The translations under genes were made by a program, and so were the position numbers. Positions 3,151 to 37,516 of a stretch of DNA of 37,775 bases are shown here, in pieces. A model generated the notes under the pieces. It saw only the letters and a list, made by a program, of their open reading frames with translations, was not told the origin of the DNA and did not search any database. Source of the stretch: a virus; the IMG/VR virus record IMGVR_UViG_3300030333_008186, positions 2,224-39,998 of that record; one strand, 5' to 3'. How positions within the stretch are numbered: the stretch's first letter is position 1; each line of letters opens with the position of its first letter.

Positions 3151-3381
3151 ATGGCAACAGAAGAAATAAAAGCAGCAGTTACAAAGCTAAGTCACACACT
3201 AAAAGTTAATAGTGCTGGTTTAGTTCCAGTTAAATTTAAAGCAAATTATAGATCTTATAACATTGGCGAGATCGCAGGATTTAGCCCTTATAAGGCGGCT
3301 GGACTTATTTACAGCAACATAGCTGTAGAAATGGCCGAAAAAACAAAGCCAGTTAAAAAAGCTATAAAAGAAAAGGCGTAA
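3151..3381 (+). CDS. Small conserved head-module protein of unknown function
   Basis: A 76-residue protein between capsid and portal. Its middle (YNIGEIAGFSPYKAAGLI, about residues 33-50) resembles a short motif often found in small proteins beside capsid genes of HK97-like phages. The last 15 residues are Lys/Glu-rich. It has no membrane segment or signal peptide. The gene has a strong ribosome-binding site (GGGGAGGAAG) and is the first gene after the post-capsid terminator. A role in head assembly or decoration is inferred only from position. Confidence 0.75.
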   Translation: MATEEIKAAVTKLSHTLKVNSAGLVPVKFKANYRSYNIGEIAGFSPYKAAGLIYSNIAVEMAEKTKPVKKAIKEKA

Positions 3382-3382
3382 A

Positions 3383-4711
3383 ATGTTTAGGCTCCGAGAA
3401 CGCGAGACAAAGAGTGAGACTGTCGAGAAAACCGTCGGGCGTGGCGACACGGCTTGGCTTTTAGATAGTCTATCTCAAGGGGGGTTGACTTCAGATTCTG
3501 GCATATATGTTAGTGCTGGAACTGCAGTTAAAGATCCTCGCGTCCTTGGAGCTATAACAGCCTTATCACAAGATGTGGCAAAAGTTCCGGTTAATCTTTT
3601 CCAGAAAGATAGCCAAGGTAATCGCCGCATCGTCATGAAAAGTCCTTTGCAGATTCTTTTAAATCGTAAGCCGAATAGCTGGCAAAGCCCTTTTGAATTA
3701 AAAGAATATCAAATGTGGTCTATGCTTCTGGACGGTAACGCCTACGCGCTGAAAGTATATAACAGTGAAGGAGCGATCCAAGAATTAGTTCCGATCAATC
3801 CTGCGAGAGTTACGCTTTATGAATCTGCAAATGGTTTTTTGTTCTACCATATTAGTCGCGGCACAAATTTTGAACGTGCGCAAATGAACCTGCCGGAAGA
3901 GGATGAGAAATATTGGATGCCAGCAGAGTTTATGTGGCATTTACGATACTTGCCATATTCAAGCGGCATTGAGGGCAAAAGTCCAATAGCGTATGCTAGA
4001 GATACGATTGGTTTAAGTATGAGCCAAGAAAAACAAGCAAGCTCAAGTGCCAGGCAGGGCGCCAGAGTTGCAGGTGTACTAAAGCATCCAAAAGTGTTGT
4101 CAGCAGATGCAGCAAACAGGTTACGAAGCCAGTGGCAGAATAACTATGCTGGGCAATCAAATGCTGGTAAGACTGTGATTCTTGAAGATGGGATGGAGTT
4201 TCAGCAGGTGCAAATGTCTATGGCTGATGCCCAATTCGTTGAGCAACGCAAACTGACAGTATTAGATATCTGTCGAATCTTTAGGATCCCACCGACTAAG
4301 CTCATGGACATGAGTCGGTCAACATATAGTAATGTGGAAAACGAAAATTTAGCATATCTTACAGATACTTTAATGCCTATCTTTGAGAGATGGGAAAGCT
4401 CTATGAATGTAAATTTGTTGACGAGTCAACAACAGTCACAAGGTTACTTTTTTGAGTTTGATATAGAGCGATTAAATAGGGGAGATTTTAAATCTCGCGC
4501 AGAAGGTTTCACAAAGTACGTACAACACGGTGTGTTTAGTCCTAATGACGTTCGGCGAAAACTTGGCGAGAATCCGTTTGATGGTGGAGATGTTTACTTG
4601 GCGCAAGTTAATATGGCTCCAGTTGATCAATTAGGTCAACTACAAGAGCCAGAGCAAGTTGAAGAGCCAGTTGAGCAGCCACTTGAAGAGGAGATTACCG
4701 TTGAGGAGTAG
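3383..4711 (+). CDS. Portal protein
   Basis: This dodecameric ring at the capsid vertex is the DNA channel and docking site for terminase and connector. The 442 residues have HK97-type (PF04860) portal features: ALSQDVAKVPVNLF near residue 60, the YQMWSMLLDGNAYAL helix-strand region near 110-125, VPINPARV near 137, and an IFRIPPTKLMDM stem/crown segment near 300. The C-terminus is a run of Glu, Pro and Gln residues that is likely disordered. The gene ends in four consecutive in-frame stops (TAG TAG TAG TGA, 4709-4720). The ATG at 3383 follows an AAAGG motif. Confidence 0.93.
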   Translation: MFRLRERETKSETVEKTVGRGDTAWLLDSLSQGGLTSDSGIYVSAGTAVKDPRVLGAITALSQDVAKVPVNLFQKDSQGNRRIVMKSPLQILLNRKPNSWQSPFELKEYQMWSMLLDGNAYALKVYNSEGAIQELVPINPARVTLYESANGFLFYHISRGTNFERAQMNLPEEDEKYWMPAEFMWHLRYLPYSSGIEGKSPIAYARDTIGLSMSQEKQASSSARQGARVAGVLKHPKVLSADAANRLRSQWQNNYAGQSNAGKTVILEDGMEFQQVQMSMADAQFVEQRKLTVLDICRIFRIPPTKLMDMSRSTYSNVENENLAYLTDTLMPIFERWESSMNVNLLTSQQQSQGYFFEFDIERLNRGDFKSRAEGFTKYVQHGVFSPNDVRRKLGENPFDGGDVYLAQVNMAPVDQLGQLQEPEQVEEPVEQPLEEEITVEE

Positions 4712-4716
4712 TAGTA

Positions 4717-5319
4717 GTGAAACTAATTTGGTACGTGGACGACCATGCGGAGTTTAGAAACTCATTGCATTTAGATCTCGAAGCTAAACTGCCAGGCTGC
4801 GCAGTCAGAACTTTTGTGACAGGCGAGCAGATGCTTGCAACATTAGATTCTTGTGATGTACGTCCTTTTGTGATCATAGCTGATGAATTAATGGAAGGCA
4901 TTTCCGGCTTTGGCTTGTATAAGATGTTGTGTGAGCGCGGCATCGAAGTTCCTTTCATCATAGTGTCAACGGATGAAACTGCAATTCAACGCTTTGCAGC
5001 TACAGGCGTCACAGCATTGCCAAAACCCGACAATTTAAAATTTAATACATGTGATTTTGTTGCACGATTGGGATCAATTATGGATGTCATGGAAATTAGA
5101 AAAGAGATTAAAGAAACAATCACTCCTCTGCAACAAGATATGACTGAGATTAAAGAGTGGATAAGAGAAACTCGCAGCGTTGATGTGCTAAAACAAATAT
5201 CAAATTTTATGGACAATTGTTCAAAACAACCACTGTTAAAGTTTTTAGTTGTGCCATTACTTCTGATTTCTGTGAGCATCATTGCAGGTTTTTTCAAGGC
5301 AAAAGGTTGGTTGAAATGA
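4717..5319 (+). CDS. Receiver-domain (response-regulator-like) protein with a C-terminal membrane segment
   Basis: The N-terminal 120 residues form a CheY-like receiver domain: acidic pair D8-D9 after strand 1, phospho-acceptor D56 at the end of strand 3 (IIAD), S84/T85 after strand 4 (IIVST), and K103-P104 after strand 5. All catalytic positions are retained, so the domain should be phosphorylatable. No DNA-binding output domain follows. Residues 122-168 form a charged helical, possibly coiled-coil linker, and 173-193 are a single hydrophobic segment with the basic tail KAKGWLK. The receiver is expected in the cytoplasm, anchored by its C-terminus. The GTG start is 8 bases after a GAGGAG site. 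The stop overlaps the muramidase start (ATGA), placing it first in the lysis island. A role in lysis timing or signal sensing is inferred from context; no homologue with known function was recognised. Confidence 0.88.
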   Translation: MKLIWYVDDHAEFRNSLHLDLEAKLPGCAVRTFVTGEQMLATLDSCDVRPFVIIADELMEGISGFGLYKMLCERGIEVPFIIVSTDETAIQRFAATGVTALPKPDNLKFNTCDFVARLGSIMDVMEIRKEIKETITPLQQDMTEIKEWIRETRSVDVLKQISNFMDNCSKQPLLKFLVVPLLLISVSIIAGFFKAKGWLK

Positions 5320-5888
5320 TTAGCCAAAAGTTTTTGCGTTGCATGATGCAAGTGTGGATTAATGAAGGTGTTGTCAACGGCGAAACTGGAGCATACACCG
5401 ACGATGGCACAACTACTAAGTACGGCATTGCTTATGAGTATAATCGCAAGACTTTGCTTAAATATGAGATTAGCGAGCCGAAAGATATGCACAAACTGAC
5501 TGAAGAAATAGCTGCCCAAATATATTATAAAAAATACTGGCAAAAGTGTGGCGCAGAACAGCTACCGATCGGTTGCGATTATTTGCTGTTTGATGCTGCA
5601 GTTAATCAAGGTGTAGGCTACGCCAGTCGGATGATTCAAGAATGTTTAAACATTCTACAGGGATCTGAAGAATTAAAAGTTGATGGTCGAGTCGGCCCAA
5701 AAACAAAAGCTCATATGCGTAATGCACTTGGACGCAAGAATGAGTTACAATTGATTATGCGGTTACATCGTAAAATGGCGTATTACCAAACGCTTGTTAG
5801 TTACGCTAGAAAAAAGAGAAAATTATTTGACGCTAAAAGCCGAGACTTTGAGACATCTTGGCTGCGGCGATTGTGGCATGATGTATGA
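5316..5888 (+). CDS. Endolysin: GH108-type N-acetylmuramidase with peptidoglycan-binding C-terminus
   Basis: This enzyme degrades the host cell wall at lysis. The 190 residues start at the ATG at 5316, which overlaps the preceding stop (ATGA); an upstream in-frame extension was rejected because it lies within the previous gene. NEG near residue 16-18 carries the predicted catalytic glutamate E17 of GH108 enzymes, followed by DDGTTTKYGI and later by FDAAVNQG (about 93-100). The C-terminal part contains VDGRVGPKT (about 122-130), characteristic of PG_binding_3. No signal peptide or SAR segment is visible, so export should depend on the adjacent holin. No spanin gene was recognised nearby. Confidence 0.9.
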   Translation: MISQKFLRCMMQVWINEGVVNGETGAYTDDGTTTKYGIAYEYNRKTLLKYEISEPKDMHKLTEEIAAQIYYKKYWQKCGAEQLPIGCDYLLFDAAVNQGVGYASRMIQECLNILQGSEELKVDGRVGPKTKAHMRNALGRKNELQLIMRLHRKMAYYQTLVSYARKKRKLFDAKSRDFETSWLRRLWHDV

Positions 5889-6427
5889 AATTATTTAAGG
5901 AAATCGGTCGAGGGTTAAAGAAAGTCGCAAAGTTTGCAGGGCGCAATTCTGAGTTAATAGCGACTGTCGCTGGCGGCCCTGCCGCTGGTAAATTGGTTGG
6001 CATGATCACAAAAACTGTTGGCGCAGATAATTTCGAAGATGCTGTGCGCATGATAGAAGAACATCCTGACCCCGAATCTATTTTGGCGACAGTGCAAGCA
6101 GAAAATTATGTGAAATTACAAGAATTGGCATACGAGTCCACTGAAGGCGCACGAAAGATGTATGGCGAAACTGTCCGAAGCAATGACGTTTGGATCCGAA
6201 GAGCGCCAGTAATTTTTGCTTATTTAATTTTGGCATGTTGGGTAGCAAGTTTTGCCACAGTCTTATTTCTTTGTTTCGGTGAGACGGGTAATGTTCCCGA
6301 AGGTTTTAAAGCATTGATATTTACAGGTTTTGGCGCCATTACGAACGAATTAAAAGGTGTGACTCATTTTTTCTTTGGCAGTAGTGAAGGAAGTAAGCAG
6401 AAGTCAATTGATTTGAGGAGAATATAA
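5885..6427 (+). CDS. Holin of the three-TM, gene-transfer-release type
   Basis: This membrane protein is thought to permeabilise the inner membrane and release the endolysin. The 180 residues start with an amphipathic basic segment, then a Gly/Ala-rich moderately hydrophobic stretch (about 22-45). A strongly hydrophobic helix follows (about 107-131), then a third hydrophobic region (about 141-163) ending in FFFGSSEGSKQK, the C-terminal signature of the Holin_3TMs family (PF11351). It overlaps the endolysin stop by four bases and abuts the next connector gene. Some annotations call such proteins simply membrane proteins, so the holin role is family-based. Confidence 0.82.
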   Translation: MKLFKEIGRGLKKVAKFAGRNSELIATVAGGPAAGKLVGMITKTVGADNFEDAVRMIEEHPDPESILATVQAENYVKLQELAYESTEGARKMYGETVRSNDVWIRRAPVIFAYLILACWVASFATVLFLCFGETGNVPEGFKALIFTGFGAITNELKGVTHFFFGSSEGSKQKSIDLRRI

Positions 6428-7017
6428 TGACTTGGGTAACGCTATATGATCTTAAAGATGAGCTTTGTATCGATGATGACGATACGCAATTTGATGCATT
6501 TTTGACTCGCAAAAGAAACTCAATTATTGCTGCTATTGAATCGTATTGTCGAAGATCTTTTCTTGCAAGCGACGAAGATGAAACCATCGATTTTCCGAGA
6601 GGAGTAGTGTTGCTAAAAAAATATCCGATCATTGGTGTTAGTGCTTTCTTCATAAACGGAGATGCGAGTACAGAATTTTACTTAGAAAATGAGACTGGGC
6701 GTTTATATTACCAAGATGCAGATGGCAACCCGATGAAATATTGGTCGAACACAAATGCAGAAAAAAGTGTGCGCATACAGTATCGAGCAGGGTACGAAAG
6801 CAACGCTTTTCCAGATGATCTGAAAGATGTTGTTTTTGCCATGGTACAACAAGCATATCTAAATCGCGATCGAGACACCAGTCAGAGAATTAAATTTGAG
6901 GCGATTCCAAATGTGATTAGCACTGCATACTATGATTCTGCAAATTTACATCCTACCTTTGGCGCACACGTTGATGTGCTAAACAAATATGCTTGTGAGA
7001 GAGGGATGCTGCCATGA
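6427..7017 (+). CDS. Head-tail connector protein (gp6/gp15-like adaptor)
   Basis: A 196-residue adaptor predicted to bind below the portal. The N-terminal helices (LYDLKDELCIDDDDTQFDAFLTRKRNSI) match the helical bundle start of DNA-packaging/connector proteins of the HK97 gp6 family. The middle is beta-rich, and a PDDLKDVVFAMVQQAY helix lies near 137-152. The ATG at 6427 shares its A with the holin stop (TAATG). Order with the next three genes (adaptor, closure, tail completion, tail terminator) supports the call. Confidence 0.82.
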   Translation: MTWVTLYDLKDELCIDDDDTQFDAFLTRKRNSIIAAIESYCRRSFLASDEDETIDFPRGVVLLKKYPIIGVSAFFINGDASTEFYLENETGRLYYQDADGNPMKYWSNTNAEKSVRIQYRAGYESNAFPDDLKDVVFAMVQQAYLNRDRDTSQRIKFEAIPNVISTAYYDSANLHPTFGAHVDVLNKYACERGMLP

Positions 7018-21450: not shown

Positions 21451-22701
21451 ATGCCGCCATTTATTACAGGAGTAAGCGCTCTTAACTTTATGACCCGATT
21501 TTCTGGGGGGTTAGATTTATCTAAATATGAAGACATAGGGGCAGGTATAAGGGCTTTAAATACATCGTCTGGTGGATATACCTATGGGGATTATATTAGA
21601 GCGATAGAGTATATGGGCAATGGCGTCATACTAGCTGGAAGTGCAGGGGCTAATGTCTGTAGAATTTATAAATCGACTGATGGTGGGGCTACTTGGTCGG
21701 TTGCTCACACATTTAATGCGATAAACCATGTGAGTTCGATAACGCGTCTTGGCACTTCAAATGATGTTGTAATCGCCACTACTGGAGGTCACGGCCACGA
21801 TGGTAATGTGTATCGGTCGGGAGATGCTGGCGATTCATGGGTACTTGAGAATAACTGGGGCGGCGGTAGGGCTTCTGGACATGATAACGTGTACAGTTCA
21901 GAATACATTCATAATAATGTATTTCTTCATGGTGGAGGGTATAATGAAGGTGACGGTTCTGTTTGGAGGTCTGCGGATGGCGGTCTAAACTGGACAGATT
22001 TAAGAGGTTCTAATAGCTCTGGAACAACAATGACCGGAAATGTTGGTTGGGACAACAATTCAGTTTTCGATGCGTCAATTTATGGAAGTCAATTTTATTC
22101 TTCCACCGATTCTTGGTGGGTTCTTAATTTAAAATACGTTGGAAATGGTGTAGTTTTAGCTAATAGAAGGCCTGTAAGGCTTGGCTCTACATCAGGTTCT
22201 GGTTCAAATACCGTCCCAGAATTAATAAGATCAACCGACTACGGAATTAATTGGACTAAAGTTACAACACAAACTACAAACTTTTTAAATAGTGGCCAAT
22301 TAGTAACTGAAAATCTGGGTAACGGTAAAGTCATTGGTGTCACTAATGCAGAAGGGTCTACTAATAGCGACAATGCTAATGTATATATATCAAATGATTA
22401 TGGTGAAACTTGGGACGAAACACCTAAATTTACTGTAAACAGAAACCGTGCATACGCTGTAACTCATTTAGGAAACGGCCATGTCGTGTTTTTAGCCTAT
22501 CACTGGACTGGAAGCGCGTATTTAGCTAACGGTGGAGAAGTATACGAATCTCTTAACTATGGTGAAACTTGGAATTCGACTCCAGTATTTGACCCAGGGG
22601 TGTTGTTTCTGCTATCTGCTAAATTTAATCCCGATGACAACGTTTTATATGTTGGAGGATCGCTTGATGACGTCGCACCTGTGTTGTATAAATTAGGATA
22701 A
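21451..22701 (+). CDS. Six-Asp-box beta-propeller protein (sialidase/BNR-like), likely receptor-binding
   Basis: A 416-residue protein with six Asp-box repeats of S-x-D-x-G-x-x-W type at residues 75-82, 123-130, 174-181, 261-268, 314-321 and 367-374, each beginning a propeller blade. Spacing is about 48-53 residues except one 87-residue gap that holds an inserted or degenerate blade. This is the layout of sialidase or glycan-binding propellers. The sialidase catalytic arginine triad could not be assigned, so enzymatic activity is unproven. Position after the tail fibre suggests a receptor-binding tip or a glycan depolymerase. Confidence 0.82.
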   Translation: MPPFITGVSALNFMTRFSGGLDLSKYEDIGAGIRALNTSSGGYTYGDYIRAIEYMGNGVILAGSAGANVCRIYKSTDGGATWSVAHTFNAINHVSSITRLGTSNDVVIATTGGHGHDGNVYRSGDAGDSWVLENNWGGGRASGHDNVYSSEYIHNNVFLHGGGYNEGDGSVWRSADGGLNWTDLRGSNSSGTTMTGNVGWDNNSVFDASIYGSQFYSSTDSWWVLNLKYVGNGVVLANRRPVRLGSTSGSGSNTVPELIRSTDYGINWTKVTTQTTNFLNSGQLVTENLGNGKVIGVTNAEGSTNSDNANVYISNDYGETWDETPKFTVNRNRAYAVTHLGNGHVVFLAYHWTGSAYLANGGEVYESLNYGETWNSTPVFDPGVLFLLSAKFNPDDNVLYVGGSLDDVAPVLYKLG

Positions 22702-33536: not shown

Positions 33537-33582
33537 CTCATTTTAAATTTATTTGTGTTTATCTATAAAGAAAGAGTTAGCC
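33504..33582. promoter_or_regulatory. Divergent promoter region between replication operon and HTH/primase genes
   Basis: Minus strand: TTGACA (33533-33528) is a perfect -35, but the hexamer at 17 bases (TACGGT) is a weak -10, and TATATT (33518-33513) is too close. Plus strand: TATAAA (33564-33569) is a likely -10 with a poor -35. The region is AT-rich and the only place from which both arms can be driven. Confidence 0.4.
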
Positions 33583-33786
33583 ATGAGCGATGAAGGAAAA
33601 GTAAAAGTTACTTTCACTCTACCCGAAATAGCATTGTACTTTCGTGTGTGTGAAAGAACAATCATTAGATGGTGTAGGGCAGGAAAAATACCTCATTATA
33701 AAGTCGGCAAGGCGTATCGCTTTGACTTTGAGGAAGTAAAAAAACAACTATCGAATGATAGTGAACTAAAAAGATTGTTAGGTTAG
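33583..33786 (+). CDS. Excisionase/MerR-like helix-turn-helix protein
   Basis: A 67-residue DNA-binding protein from the ATG at 33583; an in-frame TTG at 33553 would add 10 residues but has no ribosome-binding site. It has a winged-helix HTH of the excisionase family (HTH_17-like): TLPEIALYFRVCERTIIRWCRAGKIPHYKVG in blocks, with the wing AYRFDFEEV. Such proteins act as excisionases, transcription factors or recruiters of replication proteins. No integrase occurs in the window. Being divergent from the replication operon and next to the GTAC array, it is a candidate regulator of that region. It ends 9 bases before the primase gene. Confidence 0.8.
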   Translation: MSDEGKVKVTFTLPEIALYFRVCERTIIRWCRAGKIPHYKVGKAYRFDFEEVKKQLSNDSELKRLLG

Positions 33787-36448: not shown

Positions 36449-36542
36449 ATTGCGCTGCACCTGCCCACTTGGTTTTACCGCTTGGGCAGTCAAAGCCAAA
36501 ACTGTCGTGAGTTTTATTACCAAAAGAGCGAGGGGAAGATGA
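36366..36542 (+). CDS. Cysteine-rich mini-protein, zinc-ribbon-like
   Basis: A 58-residue basic protein in the +1 frame relative to the 48-residue gene it overlaps. RCKKCRRTRLRCTCP (20-34) gives a CxxC-x6-CxC pattern that could bind one zinc ion. An AAAGGA site lies about 5 bases before its ATG, and its TGA overlaps the radical SAM ATG (ATGA), the same coupling used by clear genes elsewhere in the window. Both points support real expression. Function is unknown. Confidence 0.55.
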   Translation: MSAKTNTIKPILIHNDQKPRCKKCRRTRLRCTCPLGFTAWAVKAKTVVSFITKRARGR

Positions 36543-37516
36543 GGATTGCTGTCAACCAACAAGACGGAAAATTCCCAAATCTTGCTTTATTGCAGATAGC
36601 GCAATATCACATTTTGCAAGGGCATAGTGTGGAGTGGTTTACCCCTTTTAACACTAGTTATTATGACAAAATATATTCAAGTCGTATTTTTAATACGACT
36701 AAACGCCCTTTGTATCTCCCTATGGACACCATAGAGGGCGGAACTGGCATTGATCCATCTTTAAAATTACCTAGCGAAATTGAAAAAATTCGTCCACGGT
36801 TTGAAGCCTGGAAAGCTTTGTATCCAAACTTTGAAAGAAATCTTGGGTTTAGCCAAAAAGGGTGTAGGTTGGCATGTAAGTTTTGTGTCGTGCCCAAAAA
36901 AGAGGGAAAGAATGTTCGCTATTCTGGGATCAAAGATCTGATGGTCAAACCATCGAAAGATCTTGTTTTGATGGACAACGATTTTTTTGGCGGCCCAGAC
37001 TGGGAAGATAACATGCAATATATGATTGAGCATAGTATTAGACCTTCTTTTGTCCAAGGGTTGAATATAAGGCTTTTGACGGAAGAACAAGCTCAATATT
37101 TAGCCAAAGTAGATTTTAGAAATGCAAGTCACAAGAAGAAGCAATTGACTTTTGCTTGGGACAGACCTAAAGACGAAAAGCTAATAATGCGCGGTTTTAA
37201 GCGATGTGTTGACGCAGGGATAAAGCCTTATAAACTCCAGTTTTTTATTTTAATCGGTTTTGATACTACGTTCGATCAAGATATGCATCGGGTGCAGAAA
37301 ATAAAAGATATGGGTTGTGATCCTTTTGTGATGCGGATGCTTGAACGAAAATATTATGCTTCGGAATTTGAGCTAAAACGTGCGCGTCATTTCCAACGCT
37401 GGGTGAATGGGCGTTTAATAAAAAAAATTAGTTTTAAAGATTATGAACCATGGAAGAAAATGATTAAAGGGGAAGATAATGGCAGCAAATTTATTTCTAG
37501 TCATGCTTGCGAGTGA
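36539..37516 (+). CDS. Radical SAM enzyme of unknown substrate
   Basis: A 325-residue protein from the ATG at 36539, chosen because AGGGGAAG precedes it and the upstream stop overlaps it; a TTG at 36482 was rejected. C109, C113 and C116 in GCRLACKFC form the CxxxCxxC site for the 4Fe-4S cluster that cleaves S-adenosylmethionine. Residues 1-70 resemble a Rossmann-like, cobalamin-binding-type domain (IEGGTGID at 65-72) but lack the B12-ligand His motif. FFGGPDWEDN and PYKLQFFILIGFD strands complete the partial TIM barrel. Related phage and bacterial proteins have no assigned reaction; RNA or protein modification is possible. Its last 38 bases overlap the next gene. Confidence 0.87.
   Translation: MRIAVNQQDGKFPNLALLQIAQYHILQGHSVEWFTPFNTSYYDKIYSSRIFNTTKRPLYLPMDTIEGGTGIDPSLKLPSEIEKIRPRFEAWKALYPNFERNLGFSQKGCRLACKFCVVPKKEGKNVRYSGIKDLMVKPSKDLVLMDNDFFGGPDWEDNMQYMIEHSIRPSFVQGLNIRLLTEEQAQYLAKVDFRNASHKKKQLTFAWDRPKDEKLIMRGFKRCVDAGIKPYKLQFFILIGFDTTFDQDMHRVQKIKDMGCDPFVMRMLERKYYASEFELKRARHFQRWVNGRLIKKISFKDYEPWKKMIKGEDNGSKFISSHACE
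36680..36738 (+). other. Two adjacent hairpins inside the radical SAM gene
   Basis: AGTCGTATT (36680-36688) and AATACGACT (36692-36700) form perfect 9-bp arms with a 3-base loop. Sixteen bases on, CTCCCTATGG (36716-36725) pairs with CCATAGAGGG (36729-36738) with one mismatch and one G-U. Neither is followed by a T run, so they are candidate mRNA structures, not terminators. Confidence 0.5.

Follow-up and report, generated by a model that had tools for sequence, protein, structure and literature searches.

What might a two-component receiver domain be doing among the lysis genes of a phage? The question is raised by an open reading frame at positions 4717–5319 (+ strand) of the window, by which we mean the whole 37,775-nucleotide stretch analyzed here, bases 2224–39998 of a 39,998-base phage record. 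The record encodes the terminase, portal, S78 protease, capsid and tape measure of a tailed phage with an HK97-like head, along with a family A polymerase, a SNF2 helicase and a primase. The lineage is uncultivated and known only from metagenomic contigs. Elsewhere in the window we noted a Radical SAM domain protein (36482–37516; phrog_9298, 4.6e-66), a BNR/Sortilin-like repeat protein (21451–22701) after a putative tail fiber gene, and a small excisionase-like helix-turn-helix protein (33553–33786; phrog_66, 6e-9) adjoining the primase gene; we noticed no integrase.

Domain architecture and active site

The predicted coordinates, reading frame and GTG start of the gene were all borne out; a GAGGAG sequence lies eight bases upstream, and the product is 200 amino acids long. 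Residues 6–104 matched Pfam Response_reg (PF00072) with 36.1 bits against a gathering cut-off of 30.2 (E = 7.9e-9), and the match was above the cut-off independently in all four full-length relatives. AlphaFold, supplied with a five-sequence alignment, predicted a (βα)5 receiver fold for residues 1–110 (4717–5046; block pLDDT 71–91), comprising β1 (residues 2–7), α1 (11–24), β2 (28–33), α2 (36–43), β3 (51–55), α3 (64–73), β4 (80–84), α4 (87–95) and β5 (99–102). A Foldseek search with this model returned receivers, DctD with its linker among them, and structure prediction thus bore out the expected fold. The nearest solved sequences to the domain were NtrC, FixJ and Mycobacterium tuberculosis PhoP.

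The original prediction held that every residue needed for phospho-transfer had been kept. For catalysis this was correct: D8, D9, D56, S84 and K103 were invariant across the five sequences. T85, which adjoins S84, is replaced by Ser in two of the five, and S84 is therefore taken as the relevant hydroxyl. For signaling it was incomplete, as the aromatic switch position on β5 (Y106 in CheY, Y101 in NtrC) is A100 in all five sequences. Relative to NtrC and FixJ, the β4–α4 segment also lacks three residues. Judged by sequence, then, the residues for catalysis are all present, but the classical Thr–Tyr switch is absent because the β5 aromatic is Ala and α4 is short. An aromatic residue at this position is typical of receivers, although not universal. 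No HATPase_c or HisKA domain was found in the phage record, and since the phage encodes no histidine kinase, any phosphate would have to come from the host or from a small phosphodonor.

Beyond the receiver, the predicted α5 helix runs on uninterrupted into an extension spanning residues 111–152 (5047–5172; AlphaFold helix 111–151), with a heptad pattern over residues 114–149 in which 75% of the a/d positions are hydrophobic in both lineages. AlphaFold placed two more helices at residues 155–169 and 174–195, the block pLDDT being 43–63 from about residue 131 onward. Hydropathy gave a single strong C-terminal hydrophobic segment at about residues 170–197, with a peak of 2.42; together with the low-confidence AlphaFold helix at 174–195, this defines a candidate membrane helix at residues 173–195 (5233–5301), in line with the anchor originally proposed. 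Apart from Response_reg, no Pfam or NCBIfam domain was matched, and a classical C-terminal output domain (DNA-binding, RNA-binding or enzymatic) is absent, agreeing with the proposal that a helical linker and one membrane segment stand in place of a DNA-binding output. The predicted architecture therefore holds: a receiver domain whose α5 extends into a coiled coil, followed by a single membrane helix at the C terminus. Support is good both for this architecture and for its conservation. As to topology, we infer that the receiver lies in the cytoplasm.

Conservation and distribution

Four full-length relatives of the protein were found, two of them close (L002, 96% identity; L003, 94%) and two more distant (L004 and L005, both 68%), and two more contigs start within the 3′ end of the gene. 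The sample thus comprises two lineages and five full-length sequences. Loss of D56 or K103 in relatives, set beforehand as an outcome that would count against the original prediction, was not found: both residues were invariant in the query and its four full-length relatives. Codon analysis gave a dN/dS of about 0.03–0.04 among the three closest copies, on which the estimate rests, synonymous sites being saturated against L004 and L005. This supports strong purifying selection on the gene.

Between the lineages, the receiver protein is better kept (68% identity) than the endolysin (59–60%) or the phrog_1544 protein (60%) encoded downstream. Its well-conserved elements include the β3–α3 loop (7 of 7 residues identical), the α4 region (11/13) and residues 126–151 of the extended helix (21/26), and its more variable ones include α1 (8/15), the α2 region (4/16), the β5–α5 loop (2/8) and the membrane helix (11/23). 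The last figure does not speak for a conserved helix–helix contact in the membrane, though helix packing can tolerate change. In known response regulators, α1 and the β5–α5 loop are the kinase-contacting surfaces. Their variation would fit changing kinase partners, and would equally fit an absence of kinase docking.

The main rival to a role that depends on phosphorylation is that the protein is a lysis accessory or antiholin whose receiver serves as a phosphorylation-independent dimerization or docking module, with the membrane helix modulating the phrog_1544 protein. It counts against this explanation that all five catalytic residues stay unchanged at 68% identity and that the β3–α3 loop is fully conserved, as receivers serving as pure scaffolds often lose some catalytic residues. 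The missing switch aromatic and the shortened α4 argue for it, as does the finding, described below, that receiver-less one-TM coiled-coil proteins hold the same place in other phages. On balance we consider it unlikely, if worth keeping in mind.

An intact phospho-acceptor lacking an output domain could also act as a membrane-bound phosphate sink or decoy, which would drain phosphate from a host envelope-stress kinase, or block it, late in infection and so prevent the cell from reacting before lysis. The membrane location, near sensor kinases, would suit such a role, as would kinase-facing surfaces that vary by lineage in a phage with no kinase of its own, and there is precedent for phage proteins directed at host two-component systems, as with PIT4 (PMC10714779). 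However, a sink would have no need of the conserved coiled coil and anchor, and the position of the gene between portal and endolysin, with a stop–start overlap, points to synthesis in step with the lysis proteins. Because the gene is coupled so closely to that of the endolysin and the signaling helix is conserved, a lysis role is more likely than a sink, which we regard as improbable.

No relatives were found in cultured phages (tblastn against INPHARED) or in GTDB genomes (pattern scan), and searches for deeper relatives with the portal, the endolysin, the phrog_1544 protein and the L005 receiver returned the same contigs only. A DELMEGI-x-G DNA motif added three matches, none of them receivers. 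We set aside 267 INPHARED records matching an NtrC receiver; among the matches listed, most were fragments lacking annotation or bacterial contigs deposited under phage or prophage names. Confinement to one small lineage with no cultured phage relative is what one might expect of a passenger gene, inserted between portal and endolysin and serving a non-lysis role such as superinfection exclusion or host signaling. Such a gene would hardly be expected to keep its start/stop overlaps while the lysis proteins diverged to 60% between lineages, and we give this explanation very little weight.

The lysis cassette and the phrog_1544 protein

Every contig covering the region has the same five-gene order, which in the window runs on the + strand from the portal protein (3383–4711; Pfam Phage_portal, 1e-100) through the receiver-TM gene, a 190-residue GH108 endolysin with PG_binding_3 (5316–5888; Pfam GH108, 6.6e-16) and a 180-residue, holin-like phrog_1544 membrane protein (5885–6427; phrog_1544, 2.3e-13) to the head–tail connector (6427–7017; phrog_442, 8.7e-22). 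Conservation of the lysis module across two divergent lineages is thereby supported. The proposed ATGA couplings of the receiver gene to the endolysin (5316–5319) and of the endolysin to the downstream gene (5885–5888) are both present in the window; in some relatives the first overlap is GTGA. In both lineages the lysis genes sit inside the morphogenesis operon, between portal and head–tail connector (3383–7017), where lysis modules are not usually located.

The endolysin also matched the NCBIfam holin-associated N-acetylmuramidase model at 1.7e-14, below that model's curated cut-off, and its E17 aligns with the EGG-motif Glu of Vibrio phage VP882 by the conserved INE/EREGG context. Hydropathy revealed no membrane, export or SAR-like segment. 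For this reason, the endolysin would need a membrane protein for its release, the timing of which should be under the control of a membrane partner.

The downstream protein had been called a holin. It is indeed a membrane protein encoded with an endolysin, with two low-confidence predicted helices (residues 107–131 and 139–164), but it matched no named holin family in Pfam or NCBIfam. Its matches were to phrog_1544 and, with less strength, to phrog_9990, two families listed as of "unknown function". A scan for phrog_1544 relatives yielded 80 loci, and many of 107 neighboring proteins were peptidoglycan hydrolases (GH108, Amidase_2, Amidase_3, M15, GH19, phage lysozyme and Cell Wall Hydrolase). 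Since these belong to unrelated families, a lysis function for phrog_1544 is supported by association, and its putative identification as a holin gains support in the same way. The family, listed in PHROGs as of unknown function, merits re-annotation as a lysis membrane protein that often has one-TM coiled-coil partners. Small one-TM charged or coiled-coil proteins made up 20 of 149 within two genes of phrog_1544, compared to 4 of 205 farther away (odds ratio 7.8, p = 2e-5), an effect whose size is approximate, as the control used mechanically listed ORFs and a hydropathy threshold.

In VP882, the order is a 90-residue one-TM coiled-coil protein, GH108 and phrog_1544. At two of the loci (L029 and L032), the partner preceding the hydrolase is C-terminally anchored, like the receiver-TM protein. 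These partners are 76-residue proteins encoded directly 5′ of the hydrolase and phrog_1544 genes, at 3165–3395 in L029 (MDALEIKEAVKEAIIESRGEF..) and 567–797 in L032 (MTPDDIKDAVKEAIIESRGDF..). The receiver-TM protein takes the position of the one-TM accessory. The likeness is one of place and topology rather than family membership, and no homology between the C-terminal half of the receiver protein and the one-TM partners was detected by sequence.

The same arrangement raises the possibility that the receiver-TM protein is itself the main permeabilizing protein, a holin or pinholin, with the phrog_1544 protein as accessory. VP882 and comparable phages encode a one-TM protein ahead of the endolysin, and a similar 80-residue one-TM protein in Marinomonas was proposed as a holin (PMC10870725). 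A soluble part of 170 residues with a lone tail-anchor helix is nonetheless unlike most described holins, and across phages it is the phrog_1544 protein that accompanies the hydrolases more constantly, which makes this explanation very unlikely in our estimation.

The original prediction knew of no receiver in a lysis operon. The search for receivers next to such genes in other phages agreed with it: Response_reg was absent from the families listed for the 107 phrog_1544 neighbors, and 50 whole phrog_1544-bearing virus records yielded a single receiver, which stands alone at the end of a contig. This canonical receiver (L040, 6435–6833; Pfam 3.8e-25), which lies about 1.9 kb from the phrog_1544 gene and has no anchor, was set aside; it may be a host gene or a moron. 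We found no described case of a phage receiver in a lysis cassette in the open-access literature, an absence that is weak evidence. The parts are thus of known kinds, and a membrane-anchored receiver within a lysis cassette is a combination not found elsewhere in the records and literature searched.

Proposed function and comparison with known systems

We tentatively prefer to see the protein as a tail-anchored accessory to lysis, with a receiver that would tie the timing of lysis to host phosphorylation. Its phosphorylation, its partner, its effect on lysis and its membrane topology are what we infer from the arrangement just described. The receiver-TM protein would be made in tight translational coupling with the GH108 endolysin and the phrog_1544 protein, and its cytoplasm-facing receiver would be phosphorylated by a histidine kinase of the host or by a small phosphodonor, for example acetyl phosphate. 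Phosphorylation would alter receiver dimerization, and the coiled coil would relay this change to the membrane helix, which might promote or delay pore formation by the phrog_1544 protein, acting with either sign, as an accelerator or a brake. The timing of pore formation would in turn set when the cytoplasmic endolysin escapes.

In favor of control by phosphorylation we counted receiver chemistry that is invariant between lineages only 68% identical, the better preservation of this protein than of its two lysis partners, and the combination of low dN/dS, constant five-gene order and a conserved heptad helix continuous with α5. Variable kinase-facing surfaces beside a conserved active site and α4, in a phage without a kinase, would point the same way, as would, by analogy, the company that phrog_1544 keeps with hydrolases and one-TM proteins, including the VP882 gene order. 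Against it we counted the Ala at the β5 switch position and the short α4, the C-terminal half without detectable homology to one-TM accessories, and support limited to two lineages and five full-length sequences.

The timing of holin action is known to respond to inputs that act through antiholins, membrane potential or transcription. The wider proposition that the phosphorylation state of a membrane-anchored phage receiver, with phosphate supplied by host histidine kinases or by acetyl phosphate, sets lysis timing post-translationally is possible but doubtful. If true, it would mean that host two-component signaling or energy status is wired directly into the holin step, and a receiver–anchor fusion encoded among the lysis genes would give such signals a direct route to lysis that can be tested.

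Among known systems, PF00072 receivers such as NtrC, FixJ and PhoP share the fold, the acidic pair, the phospho-Asp, the Ser and the Lys with the present protein, which differs in having a membrane helix instead of a DNA-binding or enzymatic output, Ala at the β5 switch and a shorter β4–α4 segment. Its α5-linked coiled coil is shared with DctD/NtrC-type linkers. Receivers annotated in Alteromonas phage PT11-V22 and Myoviridae sp. ctrnx29 share the receiver fold, the comparison being by fold match alone. XhlA of prophage PBSX (PF10779) offers a precedent for a small membrane accessory needed beside holin and endolysin (PMC5589764). XhlA lacks a receiver, and its model gave no match at E ≤ 10 to residues 111–200, the 90-residue C-terminal part taken alone, of the two lineages. 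The one-TM protein of VP882 (90 residues) differs in its N-terminal anchor, its lack of a receiver and its lack of sequence homology to the C-terminal half of ours, whereas the VP882-type cassette as a whole shares the gene order, the GH108 endolysin, the phrog_1544 protein and a one-TM helical protein before the endolysin.
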